Origin: a virus
Strand: one strand, 5' to 3'
Length of the DNA: 32,116 bases
Virus record (IMG/VR): IMGVR_UViG_3300004369_000075
Location: 1-32,116 of that record
Shown here: positions 7,489-31,667 of the stretch, in pieces
How positions within the stretch are numbered: position 1 is the stretch's first letter
Layout of the letters: every line of letters starts with the position of its first letter
Notes under the pieces: model-generated
The model's database searches: none
The model's input: only the letters and a program-made list of their open reading frames with translations
Told to the model about the DNA's origin: nothing
Program-made: the position numbers and the translations under genes

Positions 7489-8724
7489 ATGGAAAACCAA
7501 GAAAACGAGGCTATTGAAAATGTAGCTACAGAAACCAATGCACAGCCCGTTGAAGAAACAGGCAAGCTAAAAGTAAAACGTCCAAAACAATTTGCTCAAC
7601 AAAATACAGAAGATGACGTTATTAAAATTGATTTAAGAGAAAACAAAGAAGAAGATGCCGTTCAAGAACAAAGCACAGATGCAGGCAATGATATTGTCGA
7701 GCAACCCCAAAACGAGGGAGGTAGCGAAGAAGTGGTTGAAGAAGTACGGGACACCGAACAAAATGAAGAGCAACCCGTTCAAAATGAAGAGCAATCCGTT
7801 CTTGAAGAAATAATTGAAGAAGAAGTACAAGAGCAAACAGAACAGTTAACAGAAGATGTAGCTGAAGCAATTGCAGAGCAAAAAGAAACAGGTATTGAAC
7901 TTCCAGAAAATATTCAAAAGGTTGTAGACTTTATGAATGAAACAGGAGGTACACTTGAAGATTATGTGCGCTTAAATCAAGATTACTCTCAACTAAATGA
8001 AACTCAATTATTAAGAGAGTATTATGAAAATACAAGACCTCATCTTGATAAAGAAGAAATTGACTTCTTAATGGAAGATAGTTTTTCATATGATGAAGAT
8101 CTTGATGACGAAAGAGATATACGTAAAAAGAAAATAGCTTATAAAGAAGAGCTAGCAAAGGCTAAAAGCCATTTAGATGGGTTAAAGTCTAAATATTACG
8201 AAGAAATTAAAGCTGGATCAAGATTAAATCCTGAACAGCAAAAAGCGGTTGAATTTTTTAATCGCTATAATAAAGAAAATGCGGAAGCATCTAAAATAGC
8301 TGAAAAGCAAAAGCAAATATTTTTAAACCAAACCAATAATGTTTTTTCAAATGATTTCAAAGGTTTTGATTATCAAGTAGGAGACAAAAAATATAGGTTT
8401 AATATTAAAAATACTAGCGAGATTAAAGAAACCCAAAGTGACATTAATAATTTTGTCAAGAAGTTCTTGAACGATAAAAATGAAATGTCAGACGCCAAGG
8501 GTTATCACAAATCATTATTTACAGCTATGAATGCCGATAAAATAGCACAACACTTTTATGAGCAAGGTAAAGCCGACGCTATAAAAGAAAGTATGGCTAG
8601 AACGAAGAATGTTAATATGGACGCGAGAGGTGTGCATGAAAAAGTTACGTCTTCAAATGGCTGGACGGTTAGATCTATTGATGGGCAAGATACTTCTAAA
8701 TTAAAAATTAAACTTAGAAAATAA
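7489..8724 (+). CDS. Probable prohead scaffolding protein
   Basis: This is a 411-aa, strongly acidic protein between portal and MCP, the usual place for a scaffold. Residues ~1-135 are low-complexity and rich in Glu, Gln, Asn and Val, with a small internal duplication (EEQPVQNEEQSVLEE). Residues ~140-290 are helical and charged (for example IQKVVDFMNETGGTLEDYVR and KKKIAYKEELAKAKSHLDGL), consistent with coiled-coil rods. The C-terminus is basic, GQDTSKLKIKLRK. Scaffolds commonly bind capsid protein through a short basic C-terminal element. No protease motif is seen, so scaffold removal by a protease encoded here is not supported. The assignment rests on position and composition more than on sequence similarity. 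Confidence 0.75.
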   Translation: MENQENEAIENVATETNAQPVEETGKLKVKRPKQFAQQNTEDDVIKIDLRENKEEDAVQEQSTDAGNDIVEQPQNEGGSEEVVEEVRDTEQNEEQPVQNEEQSVLEEIIEEEVQEQTEQLTEDVAEAIAEQKETGIELPENIQKVVDFMNETGGTLEDYVRLNQDYSQLNETQLLREYYENTRPHLDKEEIDFLMEDSFSYDEDLDDERDIRKKKIAYKEELAKAKSHLDGLKSKYYEEIKAGSRLNPEQQKAVEFFNRYNKENAEASKIAEKQKQIFLNQTNNVFSNDFKGFDYQVGDKKYRFNIKNTSEIKETQSDINNFVKKFLNDKNEMSDAKGYHKSLFTAMNADKIAQHFYEQGKADAIKESMARTKNVNMDARGVHEKVTSSNGWTVRSIDGQDTSKLKIKLRK

Positions 8725-8743
8725 CAAACTAAATTAAAAAATT

Positions 8744-20346: not shown

Positions 20347-20910
20347 ATGTCTAAAAATAAAATTAAATTTAATAATAATAAACTAAGTAGTTATACTAAA
20401 AGCCTTGAAGATCTTCAAAACGTAATGATAGAAAATAATCATTTAGAAAACGTTTTTGGCGATGGTAAAAATTTAGTTAATAACGAAATATTTAGAATAG
20501 AGAACGAGTTTTCTGACCAGTTGTATATGCGTAAAATGTATATGCCAAAAGAATGCGTTGTTGTAAGTGCAATACACCATACGGAGCATTTTTGGTTTTT
20601 ATTAAAAGGCAGAATATTAGTTACAACAGATGGAGAGCAAGTTGAGCATATAGCGCCTTGCTATCAAAAGTCTATGAAAGGTGCTAAAAGATTAATACTA
20701 TCACTAGAGGACACATTGTTTATAAATGTACATAAAAATCCTACAAATACAAAAGATATGAAAGAGGTAGAAAAATCTTTGTACTCTATAACAATGGAAG
20801 AATATATTAAAAAAGAAAAAGAATATGGCAGGAATAGCAACAGCCGCAATGATTGGAGGCGCCGTAAAAGGTTTGACTGGAATCGCTTCTGGTATAATTG
20901 GTTCAGGTAA
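20347..20910 (+). CDS. Cupin-like protein in the tail/ejection module, with overprinted C-terminus
   Basis: In this 187-aa protein, residues ~58-130 read LYMRKMYMPKECVVVSAIHH, TEHFWFLLKGRILVTTDGEQ, VEHIAPCYQKSMKGAKRLIL and LEDTLFINVHKN. That is the strand order of a small cupin barrel: a G-x-I-H-x-(T)-E-H segment, then (L)-x-G-x-(I)-x-V, then (E)-D-T-x-(F)-x-x-(V)-H. HxxEH and the late His could bind a metal. Similar cupins occur in structural clusters of environmental podoviruses without proven activity. Residues ~160-187 (NSNSRNDWRRRKRFDWNRFW and the last six) lie in an 86-nt overlap with the next gene. This Arg/Trp-rich tail is therefore made by overprinting. The cupin fold is likely; substrate and role are unknown. 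Confidence 0.72.
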   Translation: MSKNKIKFNNNKLSSYTKSLEDLQNVMIENNHLENVFGDGKNLVNNEIFRIENEFSDQLYMRKMYMPKECVVVSAIHHTEHFWFLLKGRILVTTDGEQVEHIAPCYQKSMKGAKRLILSLEDTLFINVHKNPTNTKDMKEVEKSLYSITMEEYIKKEKEYGRNSNSRNDWRRRKRFDWNRFWYNWFR

Positions 20911-21493
20911 AAGGAAACGCGAGCAAAGAGCAGCTCAGGCGGAGTTTAACCGAAGAATGGCCGAGTACCAAAATCTTGATACTAGCAACTTATACAGAAA
21001 TTTAGAAAATACATATGAAGACTTAACTGTTAATCAACAGCAAGCCGACTATACCCGTAGGCAACAAGAAAGAGGTTTTGCTTCAACTATGCAAGGGCTG
21101 CAGGGTGCTGCCGGCGGATCAGGTATTGCGGCATTAGCGCAATCACTAGCTGGGGAGCAAGCTCAAGCGGCAGAAAGAGCAGCTGTATCTATTGGTAGAC
21201 AAGAAAGCCAAAACCAAATGTTGGCGGCGGGACAAGCAGCTACTAACCAAATGGCTGAAATACGTGGCGAGGAGCAGTCAAGAAATTTAAAAAGACAGCA
21301 AACTGAAACATTATTAGGCATGTCACAACAACGTTTAGGAGCAGCTAACCAAGCTAGGCAACAAGCTACTCAATCTATATTAGGCGGGGTTGGAAATTTA
21401 GTAGGAGCGGCAGCGCCTGGTATTGGAAATGTTATGGGAGGCGGTGACTTTTTCTCAGGACAAGCAATGAGCGGTGGTGGAATAACACCTTAA
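20825..21493 (+). CDS. Putative internal virion (ejection) protein, T7 gp14-like in position
   Basis: This 222-aa protein has an Ala/Gly/Ile-rich N-terminus (residues 2-26, MAGIATAAMIGGAVKGLTGI then ASGIIG) able to form a membrane helix or glycine-zipper segment. A long Gln/Ala/Arg-rich helix with NLENTYEDLTVNQQQADYTR near residues 60-80 follows. The C-terminus is Gly-rich (GGVGNLVGAAAPGIG, then GGDFFSGQAMSGGGITP). The order membrane-active N-terminus, alanine/glutamine coil, glycine tail is shared by podovirus internal proteins that enter the host envelope during ejection. It is the first of three genes of rising size, as in T7 14-15-16. The start overlaps the cupin gene by 86 nt; an in-frame ATG at 20849 would shorten but not remove this overlap. 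Confidence 0.68.
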   Translation: MAGIATAAMIGGAVKGLTGIASGIIGSGKRKREQRAAQAEFNRRMAEYQNLDTSNLYRNLENTYEDLTVNQQQADYTRRQQERGFASTMQGLQGAAGGSGIAALAQSLAGEQAQAAERAAVSIGRQESQNQMLAAGQAATNQMAEIRGEEQSRNLKRQQTETLLGMSQQRLGAANQARQQATQSILGGVGNLVGAAAPGIGNVMGGGDFFSGQAMSGGGITP

Positions 21494-22862: not shown

Positions 22863-25800
22863 ATGCCAGATAACAAAATACTAAAAAATATTTGGAACCA
22901 CCTATCTTCTAAAGAATTAACTTCATCTGATTTTAATACTTGGAAAAACAATATAGAAAATAGCGATGAAATTAAAAACAACGTTTGGAATTACCTAAGC
23001 GATAATGAATTGACCACATCTAGTTTTGATGATTGGTCTAAAAATGTTTTTAGTTCACTGGGAAACCAAAAAGACCCTGCAAAGGAGACTGCGAATGTGG
23101 GGTCGGTAAATCAAGCAGTCGATACGGATTCCAACTTGGGAAATGGTTCTTTGGGATCACAAAAATATGATGAGGCTACACAAATAACCAAAGATGAAAT
23201 TAATTTGATAAACAAGGAAGTTAGTCAAATAAGTTTTGAGCCTATAATTGAAAGTGTTTATACGCCAGGCGGCTATATGGGCTTTGGTGGTGGTTATAAA
23301 GAAGTAAAAAAGCAACCGTATAAAGAATATTTAGATCAAGCTAAAAAATCGCTAGAAAAAAACAAAAAAGAAGGCGAGGAAGTTACACAAGAAAAAATTG
23401 AAGACTACGCTCGCTTTTTAATAAAGCAAGAAAAAGAATTTGATATTCTAAAAAAGAAAAATAAAGATTATTTAAAAGAACTATCAGATGAAGAGCGAAT
23501 AGCTATTGGTCAAGAAAAAGCTGAGTTATATATTAAGCAACAATATGAAATAGAGGAAGACTTAGAGGCTATAACTCTTGCTGCTGAAAAATATAATAAT
23601 AGTGCTAATGTAAAGAATTTAGATAATTGGGGTAAAATTTTATCTGATCCAAATGCTATTGTTGATGTTACATATGCCCGCGAAAACAATGAGCCATTAG
23701 TGCAGCTAAAAGATGGTAGGGTTGTGCCGGAAGCTTTTATTGAAGCATACAATGAAGCTTATGCAAAGCACGAGGCTCACGTTGCTTTTATGAAAAAAGC
23801 AGTCAAAGATTACGAGGATAAAGTTAAATCCCAGCCGGAGCTAGAGAAGGACGTAGACTTCTTAAAAAGAAATTATGATAGATTAGATAAGCTATCTCAA
23901 ATAGCTTATGATTCAGTTGCTGAGGCTGGTATAGGCCAGTTAAATTTCTTTTTAGATGTTTCTGAAATGATAACAGGTGAACCAGCTTCCATGGGATCTG
24001 TGATTAATAAAGAAAACATAAATGCTGTTAGAAAAGAAATGCAGCGCAAAGCTAGGGAGGATTATGCACATAGTGTAAAATTTGAAGATGCTTTTGATAG
24101 TGCTGAAAATTTTGGCGAATGGGCTACTGAAAGTTTAGCTGGACAGACTGGTACATTAGCTCAGTTAGCATCAGGTAATTATATTGGCCTAACTTCCATA
24201 GGTATGAGCTCTTATGGACGTACTATATCTGATATAGAAATTGCAGATGAAGAAAATGGGACAGAAACCTCTAATTTAAACAAAAGATTAACAGCTCTTG
24301 GTTATAGTGCAGCAGAAGTAGGGCTCGGAGCTTTACCAACTATGCGTATACTTAGTAAGTCATCAAAAGCGTTTGGTGATATGAGTATAAGAAACTTTAG
24401 TAAAGGAGTTGGTAATTATGTTTCTAAAAATTGGAAGGCATTACCAGATGCTCTTATTACTGAAGCCGTTTCTGAAGGCGCTACGAGCTTTGTACAAAAT
24501 GGTCTAGACATAATAGGGGGCAGAAGAGACATCCAGAATATTTGGGAGGGAGTTTTAGAAGCTTCTGTAACCGGCGGAATGTTTGGTGTTACCCTAGGCA
24601 GTATGCCACTCCTAAAAGGTATGGGGTTAGCCGCTTTTTCAGATTACAACAAGTATGAGCAATTTAGAGATAATGCTGAAACTATTGGTATTTTGAATAA
24701 AGAGATTGATGGCATGGACAAAAGAACCAAAGCCTATAAAGATCGTGTAAAATTAATAAATGATTTAACAGCCACAAACTCTGATATATTAAATACAATA
24801 GAAGCTAATATTGAAAATAACTTATCGCCTGAAGGGTTTAGATTATATCAACAAGCAACCACTGAGCAAGAACAAATAAGAGCTCAAGCAGAGCAAATAC
24901 AGAACAATAATAACCTTTCGCAAAAAGAAAAAAATACAGCTTTAGATAAATTAAAACAAAGGTTTGATTATTTGCAAGCAGGAAGGAACATATACAAAAA
25001 AGATTTTGGTAATATATTTAATATAGAAACCGAGAGTGTTCAAAATAAATATACCGATTTAGCCGAAAAAGAATTATTAAGAGATAATATAACTGATCCT
25101 AATAAAATAAAAAAGAAAGCGCAGGAGTTATACAGCATAGATAAAATAAAGGATAGAAACCAAAAAGCTATCGATGCCATAAAGAAATTGAAAGCCGCTG
25201 GGATTATTAACAATTATAATTATACAGAATCTAATACCGAGCTTTTAGAATTACTTAAAGACGATTTAGACTTACAGGTTGAGTCTGGATCATTATCTCA
25301 AAATCAGGCAAAAGAAATATATCGTGACGCAAAAAGAAAAATTTCAGATGGTAAGCTTAATGGGTTTAATTTAACTAATATTGAAAATAATAAAATTAAA
25401 TCATACAATATATATGTTTCACAAGAAAACGCTTTAAAAAACGGCAGAACAGAAACAGCTATTCATGAATTAGGCCATTCAATATTTATAGAAAGCTTAG
25501 GTACTAACCCTGATGCGTACAATGGACTAGCTAACGATATACTAAACTATCTTAATAAAAACAATAAATCAGCTTATAATAGAATAGTTGCACAAACAAC
25601 AGGGCAGAGCGCTGATGAAATTTTAACAAACTTTTTAGAAGAAGTTTCTTCAGGTAGACTAGAACTAGAAGCTGCCGCAAACAAAGGCTTTGTAGCCACT
25701 TTAGCTTTAAAATTAAGAAATATTTTTTCAGACGTAACAAATACCCCTGATGTTTTCACTTTTAAAGGTGTTACAGATGCTGCTACTTTTCTAACAGAAT

Positions 25801-28800
25801 TAGGCAATAAGCTAGCTACTGGAACTTTAAGTGTTAAAGATGTTAAAACAATACAACAAGAAGGTATAGCTGGTAAAAAACTAAAAGATTTAAAGGAAGC
25901 AAAGGCTGAATTATTTAAATCAGAGCAAGCTGATATTCAATCTGCATTAAACGCTTTAGAAGATCGATTAATGGATAACTCTATTGATTATGATACCTAC
26001 GAGCGTGAAGTTGAAAAACTTGAAAAACAATTTGAAGTTGCTGAAAAGAAAGCCGCGGTTGAAAAGGCTAAACCTAAAAGAAAAGAAAAGAAAACAGACG
26101 AAAACTTAAAACAAGCCACCGCTAGATCTAAAAAAATACTTGATAAAATAGGCAATGATCGTAATGGTTATAACCCTAACAATCCTAAAATTGTTGAGGT
26201 GCTATCTGGTATGATAGAGTCTAAATCTAAGGTATTTAGAACCTCAGGCGGTACAATTAGAAATTTAACAAACTTGCCTGGGTTTGAAATGGAAAATATG
26301 GTCGCTGAAACCATAGCAGGTATGGTTCCGTTAATCAATAGTTTTAATCCTAAAAAGAATGATTCTTTATTTGGGTATTTAAATGCTCAACTTGCTAATA
26401 AAATGCGAGGAGCTTTAAAATCTGGAAGAGTTACAGATCAAAAATTTACTGAAGATGTATCAACAGCAAAAGGCGTTATAGCTGAAGAAACTACAACTAA
26501 GCAACCAGAAAAGCCTAAGTATGTTAAAATTATGGATGCAGATGTGTTCGATACTAAAGTTATCAATGCTATCTCTGACAAAATGGTTTCCACGGTACGT
26601 ATACTTAAAAATAAACTTATTGCTGCCTTAGGCAAAAACCAAAATACATCTCCGTTAATTGCTGAGATATTGTCTGATATTTCAACGCAAGCGGACATTG
26701 ATATTAAAAAAGCAATGGGTGGTAAAAAAGATGGTGCTTTAAGAAAATTCTTGCTTAAAAATAAACAAGCAATAATTGAAAATTCTACCACCACATTCTT
26801 AATGGGTAAAGATCAAGGTGATCAAGTATTAGGAGGATTACCTATTGCAATACAAAAACAAGTTGATGGTAAGTTTTTATCATATCCTGATTGGGTTGGC
26901 AAAAAAATAGATCGCGAAACAACAGAAAAAAGAGGCGCAACTGCTGGAAACCAAATAGTACGCCGTGTGCCAGCTAATAGAATTTCTGATGCTGATTATC
27001 TATCTTTCTTTTTGCAACCAACAGGTAACCCTATACGAGGTCGTAAGGAAGCATTAGCTAAGGAATTATCAGGAGAACTAGGATTAGAGTTATTTGTTGA
27101 GGCTGTTGAATCAGGCAGTGGACCTATATTCGATGCTTTTGAAGGCAACAGAGAACGAATGGGCGAAGTACTTGGTGATTACTATGCTGGAGAAGTTATT
27201 AAACAAGCCGAGCGCGGTATGGTTAAATTTAGCTTATCTCAAGATATAATAATAGAAACATTTAAAGAACTTTCTGGCAGAACAGAATCTCAAACTACTA
27301 AAAATTTAAATACATTATATAAAAAATACCCTAAGCTAAGAGATCAAATAGAGGAAGAGATTGTTAAACCATATAAAAATTTATGGAAAAGAATTAATGA
27401 GCTTGTAGAATTATCAAAAGATAATGATAAAAAGTTAAACAGAGGTAAAGCTTATGAAATAGCTTTCAGCGAAATGCTAAATAAGGTTGGAGGTAAAATT
27501 AATAATGTTAAAGTAGAAAAAGATGGTGTTGATGTAACATTTCAAATTGGTAAAGACGTAATAAAGCTAGAAACTAAATTAGATACCGATGCTAAATTTG
27601 GCAGTCCTCAAGTTTTTGGTATTTATGATTTTATATTAAACGGCACACCAATTAATTTTGAATGGGCTACAAAAGAGCAAAATAATCTTTTAAATGAAGG
27701 ATTAAAAAGTATGCTTCCGGCGTTTAAAGCTTATGTAAATAAACTTAAAGAATTAAATGGCGTTGTACAAGAAGACGGCAGCATATTAATATCCGAGCAA
27801 GCAATGGATCCTTTATATAAAAAGGATCAAAGTCAAGCGCTATTTGAAAAAACAAGAACCTACATAGACTTACCCTGGGATATAGTAAATAGCTGGTATG
27901 CTCAAAATAATAATGATATTATAAATATATTAGAAATAGGTGCATTTAATTTAAAAGAAAACCCTGGCCCATATTCAGCATATTTGCCAGAATTTGCTAC
28001 ATATACAGACGGAGTAATGGACAAGGGTATACAAGCCCGTGGCGTATTTTATTCATCCGGAAAAGGAGAAACTAAAAAAATAAAATTTGGATTTGTATTT
28101 GAAATTAAAAATGCCGCTTTTAAAGATAAATTAACAAAAAAAGGTGGTAAACAAATAAATACAGAGCTTGGCTTAGAAACATTTCTAGGTGTTAAAACAA
28201 AACCAATAAGAGAAGGAAAACTAGAAAAAGGAGCTAAAAGACTTTCAGCTAGCCTTACTTCTACCTCTGATATTAATGTTGTTGCGGATAGACAATATAA
28301 AGGGCAATTTAATTATGACTTTGAAATAAACGGTATTGACTATGACGGAACAGGGTTTGGATTTAATATGGTTGATCAAGCATTTGATAACACTGACCTA
28401 TATATAAATGCAATGTCTGAAATTACTGGTGCAAAAAATGTTAAAACTAGCAAATACCAATATTTTGTATTTGGCGAAAGTGACAGCGGCAGCACAGAAG
28501 TAATAGGCAGAGAAAGTGCTGTATGGGATGGCAAAAAATATGTTTTTCCAGAATCCGACGTAAAACAATCATTAAACGTATTTGGGTCGTTAGCTAATAA
28601 TTTTGTTAAGCAAGCTAAAGAAGGTAAATTAGATGGTATAGTTTTTACAGGTAAGGAGGCTAGCCGTAGAAAGCTTTATAGTGCAATAACTATTAAATTT
28701 GCAAATCAACTAGGTTGGAATTATAAAATAATATCACGCAGAGAAGCTGCAGGTGGAGATATATATGTTTTAGGTAAATCAAAATTCAAAGAAATACCTA

Positions 28801-31667
28801 TAGAAAGAATAAAATTATCACAACAAGCATCAGATAATACGCTATTTTTAGGCGCTGTATTAAATCCAGTGGTCAATATGAAAAAATTTGATCCTTATGA
28901 AATGGCTGATATTATTGCTTCTGAATTATTTAGAGATTCAAAAAAATATAGAAACAGACAGAAATTTGAGTATCTTTATAAAAACCTTACAAAAGAAGAG
29001 CAATATCAAGTTCAAAAAGAAATGCGCAAAAAGAACTTAACTCCTTTTGGAAGAGGTATAAGCGTTTGGGATTTTGATGACACGCTAGCCACCACGAAAA
29101 GTAATGTATTATATACTTTGCCTGGAGGTATAACAGGTAAGCTTAATGCAGAAGAATTTGCAAAACGTGGTGATGAGCTTTTACAGCAAGGCGCTGAATT
29201 TGACTTTAGTGAATTTGAAAAAGTAATGAAAGGAGCTAAAGGGCCTATGTTTGAAAAAGCCCTGGAACGCAATAAGCGATTTGGCAATGAAAGCGTTTTT
29301 ATATTAACCGCTAGACCCGCTAATTCGGCAACTGCTATACACGAGTTTTTGAAAGGTATTGGCCTTGATATTAAGCTAGAAAATATTGTAGGCTTAGGCA
29401 ATAGCACCGCGCAAGCAAAAGCTGACTGGGTTAAAGGTATGGTTGCCGAGGGTTATAATGATTTTTACTTTGCTGATGATGCTTATAAAAATGTTAAAGC
29501 TGTACAACAAGTTTTAGAAGTTGCTGATGTAAAAAGCAAAGTGCAACAGGCTGCTATTAAATTTAGTCAAACGGCTGATCCTAAAATATTAGACAAAGAA
29601 TTTAACTTAATGCTCGAGCGCACTAAAGGCGTTAAAGCAGGTGCGGTTATATCACCGTCAAGAGCTGAGCAACTAGGCAAGGGTAAAGGTAGATTAGATT
29701 TATTCTTGCCGCCTAATGCTGAAGACTTCCAAGGATTACTTTATAAGTTCTTAGGTAAAGGCAAACAGGGTGATGCTGATATGAAGTTTTTTAAAGAAAA
29801 CTTATTTGATCCGTTCAATCGTGCTGAAAATGCAATGAGTACGTTTAGACAACAATTAGCGGATAACTTAAAAATATTAAAGAGAGAGCTTGGTAATATT
29901 GATGAGGATATTGATGCTGAAACAATAAAGAAAATAGAAGCCATAGGCTTTACTCCTGATCAAGCCGTCCGTGTATTTGTGTGGAATAGACTAGGTGAAG
30001 ATATACCTGATTTAACAAAACAAGAAAAAGCTAAAATACTTAGTGTAGTTAGGAGAGATGCAAGTTTAATGCGATACGCTAGAGAGTTAATGAAAATTAC
30101 TGAGCAATTTGGAGGTTATCCTCCACCATCTAAAACTTGGTTTGCTGGTAATTCAACTAGTGATCTTTATCAATATGCTAATGAAAATGTTAGAGCTAAA
30201 TATTTAGAGCAATGGCAAGCTAATGCTGATGCAATCTTTAGTCCAAAAAATATGACTAAGATACAGGCTTTATACGGTAAAGATTTTGCTAAAAACCTAA
30301 AAGAAGTATTACGCAGAATGAAGTCCGGTAGTAACAGGCCATTAAACCTAAATGACACAGGTAGTAAAATGCTTGACTACATTAACGGATCAGTTGGTAC
30401 TATAATGTTCTTAAATATGCGTTCTGCGGTGCTTCAGACTATTTCAGCGGTTAACTTTTTAAACTGGCATGATAATAATATATTTAAGGCAGGAGCAACT
30501 TTAGCTAACCCTAAAAACTTTGTTAAAACATTTATGGAAATTATGAATTCTGATTTCCTAAAACAAAGACGTAATGGTTTAGAAATAAATGTATCTGAAG
30601 CTGAAATTGCAAATGCAGTAGAACAAAGTAAAAATAAGGCAAAAGCAATATTTAGTAAAATAATTAAATTTGGATATAAGCCTACGCAATTTGCAGATAG
30701 CTTTGCTATTGCAGCGGGTGGTACTTCGTTTTTAATTAATAGAACTAATACATATGTAAAAACCGGTATGTCTTATGCTGAAGCAAGAGAGCAAGCGTTT
30801 ACAGATTTTAGAGCAATAGCAGAGGAGAACCAGCAGTCATCAAGAACAGATAGAACATCTAATATACAAGCAAGTAATTTAGGGCGTTTAGTATTTGCAT
30901 TTAACAATACGCCTTTCCAGATGACTCGTTTGTTTAAGAAGGCTACATTAGACTTAGTAAACGGCAGAGGCGATATTAAAACTAATATTAGTAAAATGCT
31001 TTATTACGGGGCAATACAAAATGTTATATTCTTTTCACTGCAGCAGGCATTTATGGCTATGCTATTTGGAGCCGACGAAGATGATAGAGAAGATCTAGAC
31101 GACAGAAGTGAAAGACTATTAAATTCTACTATAGATTCAATTTTAAGAGGATCTGGACTTCCTGGGGCGGTTATAAGCACAGCTAAGAATGTTATAATGG
31201 AATACGCTGCTCAAGAGGCTAAGGGTGATTGGAGAGCTGATCATGGCAAAACATTAATACAAGCATTAAACTTTTCGCCACCCCTTGGATCAAAAGCATC
31301 AAGAATATATAGTGCTTTGAAAGGTAAGAAATATGAAGAAACAAGTTTTGATGCGTTACGTAATCAGAGTAAAATAATTTCTGCTATTACAAATATACCT
31401 GTTGATAGAACAATTACTAAGATTGACAACCTTCGTGTTGCTACTAGCGAGCCAATTGAAACATGGAAACGATTAGCATTATTTGCAGGATGGGATCAAT
31501 GGTCACTTGGAATCTATGACGACTTAAAAGCTATTGAGGATAAAGAAAAAGGTAAAGAAAAGAAAAAATCACGCAGCGAAATAATGAAAGAAGTATGGCG
31601 CAAGCGTAAGGAAGAAGATAAGAAACACAGAGATAGTATTATAAATACATTTAGAAAGAAAAAATAA
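22863..31667 (+). CDS. Giant multi-domain (polyvalent-type) virion/ejection protein with peptidase, nuclease-like and HAD domains
   Basis: This protein is 2934 aa, more than twice T7 gp16. Domains in order: a 31-residue tandem repeat (W11/W42, F24/F55, W27/W58); helices; a hydrophobic Gly-rich region at ~540-580 (WEGVLEASVTGGMFGVTLGS); a zinc peptidase motif HELGH (868-872) with Glu 926/927 as possible third ligand; a helical part with FNPKKNDSLFGYLNAQLANK (near 1161); a PD-(D/E)XK-like pattern with E1532, D1557 and E1570-T-K1572; a mixed domain at ~1800-1980; a HAD domain (DFDDT 2070-2074, T2149, DD 2205-2206); and a helical C-terminus from ~2235 (FLPPNAEDFQGLLYKFLGKG, SNRPLNLNDTGSKMLDYING, FNNTPFQMTRLFKKATLDLV) of a type conserved in large marine phage proteins. 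This fits polyvalent proteins injected with DNA. Activities are predictions from motifs. Confidence 0.8.
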   Translation: MPDNKILKNIWNHLSSKELTSSDFNTWKNNIENSDEIKNNVWNYLSDNELTTSSFDDWSKNVFSSLGNQKDPAKETANVGSVNQAVDTDSNLGNGSLGSQKYDEATQITKDEINLINKEVSQISFEPIIESVYTPGGYMGFGGGYKEVKKQPYKEYLDQAKKSLEKNKKEGEEVTQEKIEDYARFLIKQEKEFDILKKKNKDYLKELSDEERIAIGQEKAELYIKQQYEIEEDLEAITLAAEKYNNSANVKNLDNWGKILSDPNAIVDVTYARENNEPLVQLKDGRVVPEAFIEAYNEAYAKHEAHVAFMKKAVKDYEDKVKSQPELEKDVDFLKRNYDRLDKLSQIAYDSVAEAGIGQLNFFLDVSEMITGEPASMGSVINKENINAVRKEMQRKAREDYAHSVKFEDAFDSAENFGEWATESLAGQTGTLAQLASGNYIGLTSIGMSSYGRTISDIEIADEENGTETSNLNKRLTALGYSAAEVGLGALPTMRILSKSSKAFGDMSIRNFSKGVGNYVSKNWKALPDALITEAVSEGATSFVQNGLDIIGGRRDIQNIWEGVLEASVTGGMFGVTLGSMPLLKGMGLAAFSDYNKYEQFRDNAETIGILNKEIDGMDKRTKAYKDRVKLINDLTATNSDILNTIEANIENNLSPEGFRLYQQATTEQEQIRAQAEQIQNNNNLSQKEKNTALDKLKQRFDYLQAGRNIYKKDFGNIFNIETESVQNKYTDLAEKELLRDNITDPNKIKKKAQELYSIDKIKDRNQKAIDAIKKLKAAGIINNYNYTESNTELLELLKDDLDLQVESGSLSQNQAKEIYRDAKRKISDGKLNGFNLTNIENNKIKSYNIYVSQENALKNGRTETAIHELGHSIFIESLGTNPDAYNGLANDILNYLNKNNKSAYNRIVAQTTGQSADEILTNFLEEVSSGRLELEAAANKGFVATLALKLRNIFSDVTNTPDVFTFKGVTDAATFLTELGNKLATGTLSVKDVKTIQQEGIAGKKLKDLKEAKAELFKSEQADIQSALNALEDRLMDNSIDYDTYEREVEKLEKQFEVAEKKAAVEKAKPKRKEKKTDENLKQATARSKKILDKIGNDRNGYNPNNPKIVEVLSGMIESKSKVFRTSGGTIRNLTNLPGFEMENMVAETIAGMVPLINSFNPKKNDSLFGYLNAQLANKMRGALKSGRVTDQKFTEDVSTAKGVIAEETTTKQPEKPKYVKIMDADVFDTKVINAISDKMVSTVRILKNKLIAALGKNQNTSPLIAEILSDISTQADIDIKKAMGGKKDGALRKFLLKNKQAIIENSTTTFLMGKDQGDQVLGGLPIAIQKQVDGKFLSYPDWVGKKIDRETTEKRGATAGNQIVRRVPANRISDADYLSFFLQPTGNPIRGRKEALAKELSGELGLELFVEAVESGSGPIFDAFEGNRERMGEVLGDYYAGEVIKQAERGMVKFSLSQDIIIETFKELSGRTESQTTKNLNTLYKKYPKLRDQIEEEIVKPYKNLWKRINELVELSKDNDKKLNRGKAYEIAFSEMLNKVGGKINNVKVEKDGVDVTFQIGKDVIKLETKLDTDAKFGSPQVFGIYDFILNGTPINFEWATKEQNNLLNEGLKSMLPAFKAYVNKLKELNGVVQEDGSILISEQAMDPLYKKDQSQALFEKTRTYIDLPWDIVNSWYAQNNNDIINILEIGAFNLKENPGPYSAYLPEFATYTDGVMDKGIQARGVFYSSGKGETKKIKFGFVFEIKNAAFKDKLTKKGGKQINTELGLETFLGVKTKPIREGKLEKGAKRLSASLTSTSDINVVADRQYKGQFNYDFEINGIDYDGTGFGFNMVDQAFDNTDLYINAMSEITGAKNVKTSKYQYFVFGESDSGSTEVIGRESAVWDGKKYVFPESDVKQSLNVFGSLANNFVKQAKEGKLDGIVFTGKEASRRKLYSAITIKFANQLGWNYKIISRREAAGGDIYVLGKSKFKEIPIERIKLSQQASDNTLFLGAVLNPVVNMKKFDPYEMADIIASELFRDSKKYRNRQKFEYLYKNLTKEEQYQVQKEMRKKNLTPFGRGISVWDFDDTLATTKSNVLYTLPGGITGKLNAEEFAKRGDELLQQGAEFDFSEFEKVMKGAKGPMFEKALERNKRFGNESVFILTARPANSATAIHEFLKGIGLDIKLENIVGLGNSTAQAKADWVKGMVAEGYNDFYFADDAYKNVKAVQQVLEVADVKSKVQQAAIKFSQTADPKILDKEFNLMLERTKGVKAGAVISPSRAEQLGKGKGRLDLFLPPNAEDFQGLLYKFLGKGKQGDADMKFFKENLFDPFNRAENAMSTFRQQLADNLKILKRELGNIDEDIDAETIKKIEAIGFTPDQAVRVFVWNRLGEDIPDLTKQEKAKILSVVRRDASLMRYARELMKITEQFGGYPPPSKTWFAGNSTSDLYQYANENVRAKYLEQWQANADAIFSPKNMTKIQALYGKDFAKNLKEVLRRMKSGSNRPLNLNDTGSKMLDYINGSVGTIMFLNMRSAVLQTISAVNFLNWHDNNIFKAGATLANPKNFVKTFMEIMNSDFLKQRRNGLEINVSEAEIANAVEQSKNKAKAIFSKIIKFGYKPTQFADSFAIAAGGTSFLINRTNTYVKTGMSYAEAREQAFTDFRAIAEENQQSSRTDRTSNIQASNLGRLVFAFNNTPFQMTRLFKKATLDLVNGRGDIKTNISKMLYYGAIQNVIFFSLQQAFMAMLFGADEDDREDLDDRSERLLNSTIDSILRGSGLPGAVISTAKNVIMEYAAQEAKGDWRADHGKTLIQALNFSPPLGSKASRIYSALKGKKYEETSFDALRNQSKIISAITNIPVDRTITKIDNLRVATSEPIETWKRLALFAGWDQWSLGIYDDLKAIEDKEKGKEKKKSRSEIMKEVWRKRKEEDKKHRDSIINTFRKKK

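Follow-up and report, generated by a model that had tools for sequence, protein, structure and literature searches.

Self-processing by a zincin-like peptidase was proposed for phage polyvalent proteins in 2017 (Iyer et al. 2017; PMC5512222), and since that description it has been a question whether the peptidases of these proteins cut their own chains. The same article presents P1 DdrB, a peptidase-bearing polyvalent protein, as cleaved before packaging, and the N4 vRNAP, a giant injected protein with an MPTase domain, as packaged uncut. In SPN3US, according to another account (PMC10052503), the head protease is encoded by a separate gene and uses one short motif repeatedly, with several internal sites in one ejected protein; for gp54, a cut after E-124 is reported. 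Here, we describe a giant phage protein in which a short peptide recurs at the seams between modules.

The window, i.e., the whole stretch of DNA analysed (32,116 nucleotides), is the entire IMG/VR record IMGVR_UViG_3300004369_000075, and its source is a marine bacterial virus, a podovirus-like phage. The podovirus-like structural block codes for TerL (phrog_6681), the portal (phrog_6547), a head protein (phrog_13704), a virion protein of 1,845 aa and a GroES-like protein. TerL shares 63% identity with that of an uncultured Manatee Spring podovirus and 46% with those of cultured Flavobacterium elemo phages. The GroES-like co-chaperonin (2007-2597; phrog_13932, E 1.7e-16) is located directly upstream of the terminase genes, and a cpn10 gene precedes TerL in one elemo phage too. 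Two ORFs (20347-20910 and 20825-21493) share 86 bases in different frames; phrog_12032, a match of the first, stands for families of short tail fibres. The 15 window ORFs that were scanned included no recognisable prohead protease, and a 411-aa ORF (7489-8724) had no match. The last gene of the structural block is an ORF of 2,934 aa (22863..31667, + strand, as for all features below), and a giant ORF follows the structural genes likewise in the elemo phages and the Manatee Spring podovirus.

The N-terminal part of this giant (residues 290-616; 23730..24710) is weakly like Cellulophaga phi38:1 gp101 (tblastn, 25.6%), and the Flavobacterium phage elemoB matches the giant over a stretch overlapping these residues (blastp, 25%). 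It is followed by a putative zincin-like metallopeptidase domain (residues 738-983; 25074..25811) and by module M (residues 1080-1452; 26100..27218), which profile search and blastp found to be common to L002, L033, L044 and others (L numbers denote loci of the comparison set). A variable cargo zone (residues 1461-1982; 27243..28808) contains a nuclease-like PD-(D/E)XK pattern followed by an acetyltransferase-like part. Both were recognised by eye; the zone had no Pfam or PHROG match in the profile search and no relatives in IMG/VR, and its residues 1817-1984 are missing from L002. The HAD or polynucleotide-kinase-type part (residues 2063-2231; 29049..29555) matches phrog_415 (E 1.4e-5), and a fold search with this stretch returned weak HAD-phosphatase neighbours, among others. 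The conserved C-terminal part (residues 2240-2934; 29580..31664) has 10 IMG/VR relatives and is present in 85 of the 90 giants assembled below. Genome contigs and named phages yielded no HAD part, and named phages no C-terminal part. Pfam gave no meaningful match for the window giant (one below its cut-off, E 0.79) and nothing at E 0.01 for six further giants.

An earlier note on this DNA had pointed to short K-(F/L)-S motifs at domain borders of the giant, together with an internal HELGH, and had suggested that the motifs are protease processing sites or a linker used in domain shuffling and, with the HELGH peptidase, that the giant may be a self-processing polyprotein. Both features were found where it had placed them, the HELGH at residues 868-872 (nt 25464-25478) with E919 as the third ligand. 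Seam peptide 1, VKFSLSQ (residues 1454-1460; 27222..27242), begins next to module M, with K1455 (nt 27225) adjoining the C-terminal end of the module; 3 of 4 homologues end at this position. Seam peptide 2, IKLSQQA (residues 1983-1989; 28809..28829; K1984 at nt 28812), lies 79 aa ahead of the HAD core as set by phrog_415 (residue 2063). Three of four homologues begin at K1984, which directly precedes the residue (1985) from which the window protein is again 72% identical to L002. Seam peptide 3, IKFSQTA (residues 2232-2238; 29556..29576; K2233 at nt 29559), is immediately C-terminal to the HAD part, and 49 of 55 homologues continue across it. The window by itself is insufficient for the finding, because K[FL]S is unenriched in the giant (4 vs 2.5 expected, P 0.23), [IV]K[FL]S (3 vs 0.3 expected, P 0.004) was picked after the sites had been seen, and the motif pairs rank unremarkably in a blind scan for similar 7-mers, where 359, 3,582 and 55,511 pairs equal or outscore them. 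Judging from sequence comparison, the pattern gains significance solely with relatives, which also reveal a motif wider than K-(F/L)-S.

IMG/VR was scanned with two parts of the giant: the C-terminal part found 10 loci, and the HAD part found 183 related stretches, of which 80 were kept. The comparison set comprised 90 ORFs of at least 1,000 aa with HAD or C-terminal similarity, the window included, and was thinned to 56 with <60% overall identity; both parts are present in 80 of the 90. Among the 56, none was found to belong to a cultured phage. Reading of the HAD flanks gave a generalised motif, [hydrophobic]-[K/Q/R..]-[F/Y/L]-S-[K/R/Q..]-[T/S..], with examples such as LQFSKT N-terminal and VQFSK C-terminal to the HAD part. 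The 56 giants have 2.7 occurrences of [KQ]FS[KR] per 10,000 residues, whereas 315 further ORFs (at least 200 aa) from the same loci have 0.5. Further, outside the HAD and C-terminal parts, FSK (77 vs 28 expected) and QFS (45 vs 12 expected) rank among the most over-represented tripeptides. Conservation at the seams extends no further than about -2 and +5 relative to the F, a range partly fixed by the pattern used to pick the sites. Substrates of T4/phiKZ-type prohead proteases are cleaved after glutamate; the seam logo, with no conserved Glu from -6 to +6, departs from that rule.

The motif can bracket an additional module. Within residues 2266-2770 of L050, a module of ~440 aa is flanked by KYSKK and KYSKKL; next comes another copy of a HAD-like tail, which ends in RYSKT. 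In L069 (4574-12619) and L071 (4553-12451), an ART-like domain with an FHGG start is inserted within the HAD part, and the insertion points carry no seam peptide, matching what would be expected if seams are cut. The giant of L077 is split at 8740, just past a seam peptide, and was considered as natural evidence and not counted; the split is probably an assembly error because a single base there differs from the otherwise matching L078 and the L077 ORF has a further early end downstream.

The earlier note had proposed that breakpoints of domain gain or loss among homologues should fall on the motifs. To score this, we used homologues covering one side of a site only, with a step of at least 5 as the mark; some sites were unscorable. 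For [KQ]FS[KR], 69% of 42 scored sites reached the mark vs 16-17% at random places in the same proteins, and 57% of 28 vs 14% did so when sites near the HAD end were removed. Among nine control patterns (four without P values), one was clearly raised, namely [IV]K[FL]A (43% vs 14%, 14 sites). The exact pattern [IV]K[FL]S in the 55 other proteins reached 37.5% of 16 sites vs 11.7%; with HAD-adjacent sites excluded, 0 of 10 reached step 5, and the step fraction was raised (0.34 vs 0.16, P 0.01). The expectation was thus borne out for the generalised motif but only weakly for the exact pattern. Directly after module M, K-F-[S/A] occurs in 5 of 6 fully aligned proteins (the window protein, L002, L033, L044 and L060; not L076). 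In its generalised form, the motif is a recurrent peptide of putative cleavage type at domain borders.

Conservation acts on the peptide and not on the DNA. At 49 sites matching [ILVMAF][KQERSAN]FS[KR], the coding 18-mers differed in 49 of 49, and the serines were encoded by both AGY and TCN codons at near background rates; in the window, the seam serine codons are AGC, TCA and AGT. This makes a DNA-level recombination site unlikely, as the codons vary freely. We then compared four motif positions among the post-HAD site, the last site ahead of the HAD part and earlier sites of each protein. Matches within the same protein exceeded those between proteins in each of three site comparisons (2.0 vs 1.1, n=21; 2.2 vs 1.3, n=33; 2.05 vs 1.28, n=20), and the observed value was reached by 0 of 20,000 permutations each time. 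Pooling of 108 sites from 37 proteins gave 2.14 within vs 1.23 between, of 4 positions. Controls with another residue in place of serine ([FY] pattern) were flat in three runs; [LIV]S had a small effect (0.97 vs 0.72, P 0.0065), which the existence of LS variants may explain. On the N-terminal side of the HEXXH, the motif pattern itself had no within-protein effect, with 7 sites only. The permutations behind these P values take no account of kinship, for which repeats at lower similarity are a partial remedy; the concerted variation persisted at N-terminal similarity <40, 25 and 15% (at 15%, P 4.5e-4 or below). We read this concerted variation as selection by one recogniser per phage, and several sites with one recogniser may be best explained as protease sites freeing cargo modules. 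Of the two uses suggested in the earlier note, processing is therefore the one favoured by concerted variation of the sites, and a linker acting at the DNA level is disfavoured because of the mixed serine codon boxes and the 49 different 18-mers.

As the giants carry a putative peptidase of their own, we considered it as the cutter. All but two of the 51 complete non-redundant giants (49) contain HEXXH; the two without any HExxH are L053, which also has no good motif, and L084, which has kept three motif sites. Regions could be aligned for 40 of 53 peptidases and 33 of 48 HAD parts. H868, E869, H872 and E919 are invariant in 40 of 40 aligned giants, where HExxH was a selection criterion and E919 was not. 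AlphaFold gave a mean pLDDT of 92 for residues 738-983, and the best structural neighbours of this model were zincin metalloproteases (Z 6 to 6.7, graded middling); Foldseek alone found no neighbour of the peptidase model at E under 0.001. Motif variants track the C-terminal part when the peptidase is removed (partial correlation 0.37, P 5e-4) and showed no co-variation with the peptidase when the C-terminal part is removed (0.08, P 0.11), the latter being weak evidence because the peptidase alignment is near saturation. The HELGH domain as the cutter is thus unproven, with no specific tie to the motif and one apparent counter-example, L084. Tentatively, the embedded HEXXH domain may be taken as the first candidate for the cutting enzyme, with a host protease or a separate phage protease as the second.

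Similar seams were also found in barely related giants, namely the ART-PolyVal proteins of Firmicutes. These proteins were matched in 18 of 295 genomes from the order of an Intestinibacillus-titled genome, and in none of 345 genomes from the phylum of a Syntrophobacteraceae genome. Seam-like peptides occur at the end of or ahead of the ART part (DIRYSI, DIRYST, DIRYSR, DIRYSK, ARFSL and AKFST). The viral contig L230 (3,296 aa) has EVRFSLKDSEG ahead of the ART part, PDIRFSMKGSE past it and TKLSLKGSE further on. Nine ORFs of at least 1200 aa with at least one loose match were counted, match-free ORFs of 1,289 aa and 1,228 aa being omitted, and the count (12 vs 3.3) is biased upward because ORFs were chosen for having a loose match. 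HEXXH is present in 5 of these 9, plus L230. When ten ART proteins were compared with the 56 giants, two matched weakly (E about 1e-5 and 1e-4), in both cases away from the seams; the ten are interrelated through common parts, and the sample is small and partly selected.

On balance, we consider it somewhat probable that the seam peptide is the recognition site of one protease which cuts the giant polyvalent protein between its modules. The N-terminal and C-terminal parts would package or eject the giant, and cutting, during virion maturation or after injection, would free the nuclease-like, acetyltransferase-like and HAD cargo enzymes from them. Three steps of this reading are inferred: that the recognised site is cut, at what stage, and by which enzyme. 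This reading is suggested by sites at homology breaks, peptide-level conservation, concerted variation, low-confidence linkers and a near-universal putative peptidase. It is weakened by the motifs of L084 without HEXXH, the tracking of the C-terminal part by the variants, the lack of a recurrent FS motif in elemoB and in the Manatee giant, the 0 of 10 for the exact pattern, the raised control [IV]K[FL]A and the uncut packaging of the N4 vRNAP, as given in PMC5512222.

The best surviving alternative, in our view unlikely, is that the peptide binds or is handled and is never cut, serving as a docking site for portal, scaffold or chaperone, or as a start of unfolding for tail passage. Modules would then go through the narrow tail one after another, and concerted variation would follow the partner. 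Indeed, concerted variation requires a recogniser and not a cut, the variants follow the C-terminal part more closely than they follow the peptidase, and crassvirus cargo proteins are believed to be ejected in a partly unfolded state (PMC10172136). Nevertheless, such handling leaves unexplained why sites flank a cargo module on both sides in L050 and L230, and why a conserved putative peptidase is near-universal. We regard it as improbable that the peptide is an inert linker, a functionless relic of module exchange copied along with the modules. Coincidence of the sites with homology breaks would fit such a relic, as would the L050 insert with its second, motif-bearing HAD-like tail copy; on the other hand, serine codon boxes agree in just 60 of 119 same-protein site pairs (50% expected) though the peptides match, so that the seams of one protein were not recently copied from each other. 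A linker is further disfavoured because the post-HAD motif is kept between HAD and C-terminal parts that are nearly always together (80 of 90), where exchange is rare, as the homologues continuing across K2233 indicate.

Still less probable is that the motif closes each domain as its last strand or helix and is retained because the fold needs it. Post-HAD sites do stand at a fixed place, with a DSSP helix extending to residue 2237 in the window protein, but in the AlphaFold model of residues 1960-2330 pLDDT falls below 50 at 1960-2011 and exactly at 2229-2239, i.e., at seams 2 and 3, and sites after unrelated modules co-vary within one protein. Chance occurrence of three look-alike tripeptides in 2,934 aa would agree with the unenriched K[FL]S and unremarkable pair ranks of the window, yet we consider it highly improbable, given that L002, L033, L044 and L006 have motifs that match at the seam of module M or of the HAD part.

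If the seam peptide is indeed a processing site, its being predictable from sequence would give exact places to look for cut ends. In proteins where few domains can be recognised, it marks where modules meet; stretches between two seams offer a route to new phage effectors, and the seams would reveal how injected cargo is put together and exchanged by phages. A wider proposal, which we put forward as doubtful, is that a common processing code exists in the giants of phages that are hardly related to each other, namely Firmicutes prophages and marine podoviruses related to phages of Flavobacteriia. Under this code, each exchangeable module would be flanked by a co-evolving seam peptide private to the phage, and the peptidase embedded in the chain would cut there, turning one injected polyprotein into several effectors. 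If this were true, new cargo would become usable once bracketed by the phage's own peptide variant.

Compared with SPN3US, no prohead protease was recognised among the window ORFs scanned, and the seams have no conserved Glu. By description, the giant resembles the N4-like virion RNA polymerase, a giant injected protein with a peptidase domain (PMC5512222); for the window giant, injection and the peptidase are both putative. The elemo phages and the Manatee Spring podovirus likewise have a giant with HEXXH as the last structural gene, and of the elemoB and Manatee giants elemoB alone aligned to the window giant, over the N-terminal part only. The elemoB giant has HEXXH and no recurrent FS motif; phi38:1 gp101 has neither; in the Manatee giant (L234, 741-12320; 3,859 aa), HEFGH occurs twice and LS-type look-alikes take the place of FS motifs. 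The elemo giants are annotated as structural protein, and the three compared giants are annotated with the same length. Phage C75C1 encodes an ART-bearing giant without HEXXH, with TKFS and NKFS look-alikes at 675 and 679. P1 DdrB shares HELGH with the window giant, at 872 in DdrB, but has a single KRFS at 756 and scattered look-alikes in place of a recurrent seam motif; P1 DarA and Hdf have no recurrent motif. No published seam motif was found in the accessible polyvalent-protein literature, including the available portions of PMC5512222. Like the polyvalent proteins described there, the window giant joins unlike domains in one polypeptide (an HExxH...E domain and a PHROG polynucleotide-kinase-type HAD in one ORF), with a putative zincin-like peptidase inside and exchange of modules. 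The idea of self-processing itself dates from 2017, and what appears to be new is a recognisable, co-varying seam peptide in polyvalent proteins.
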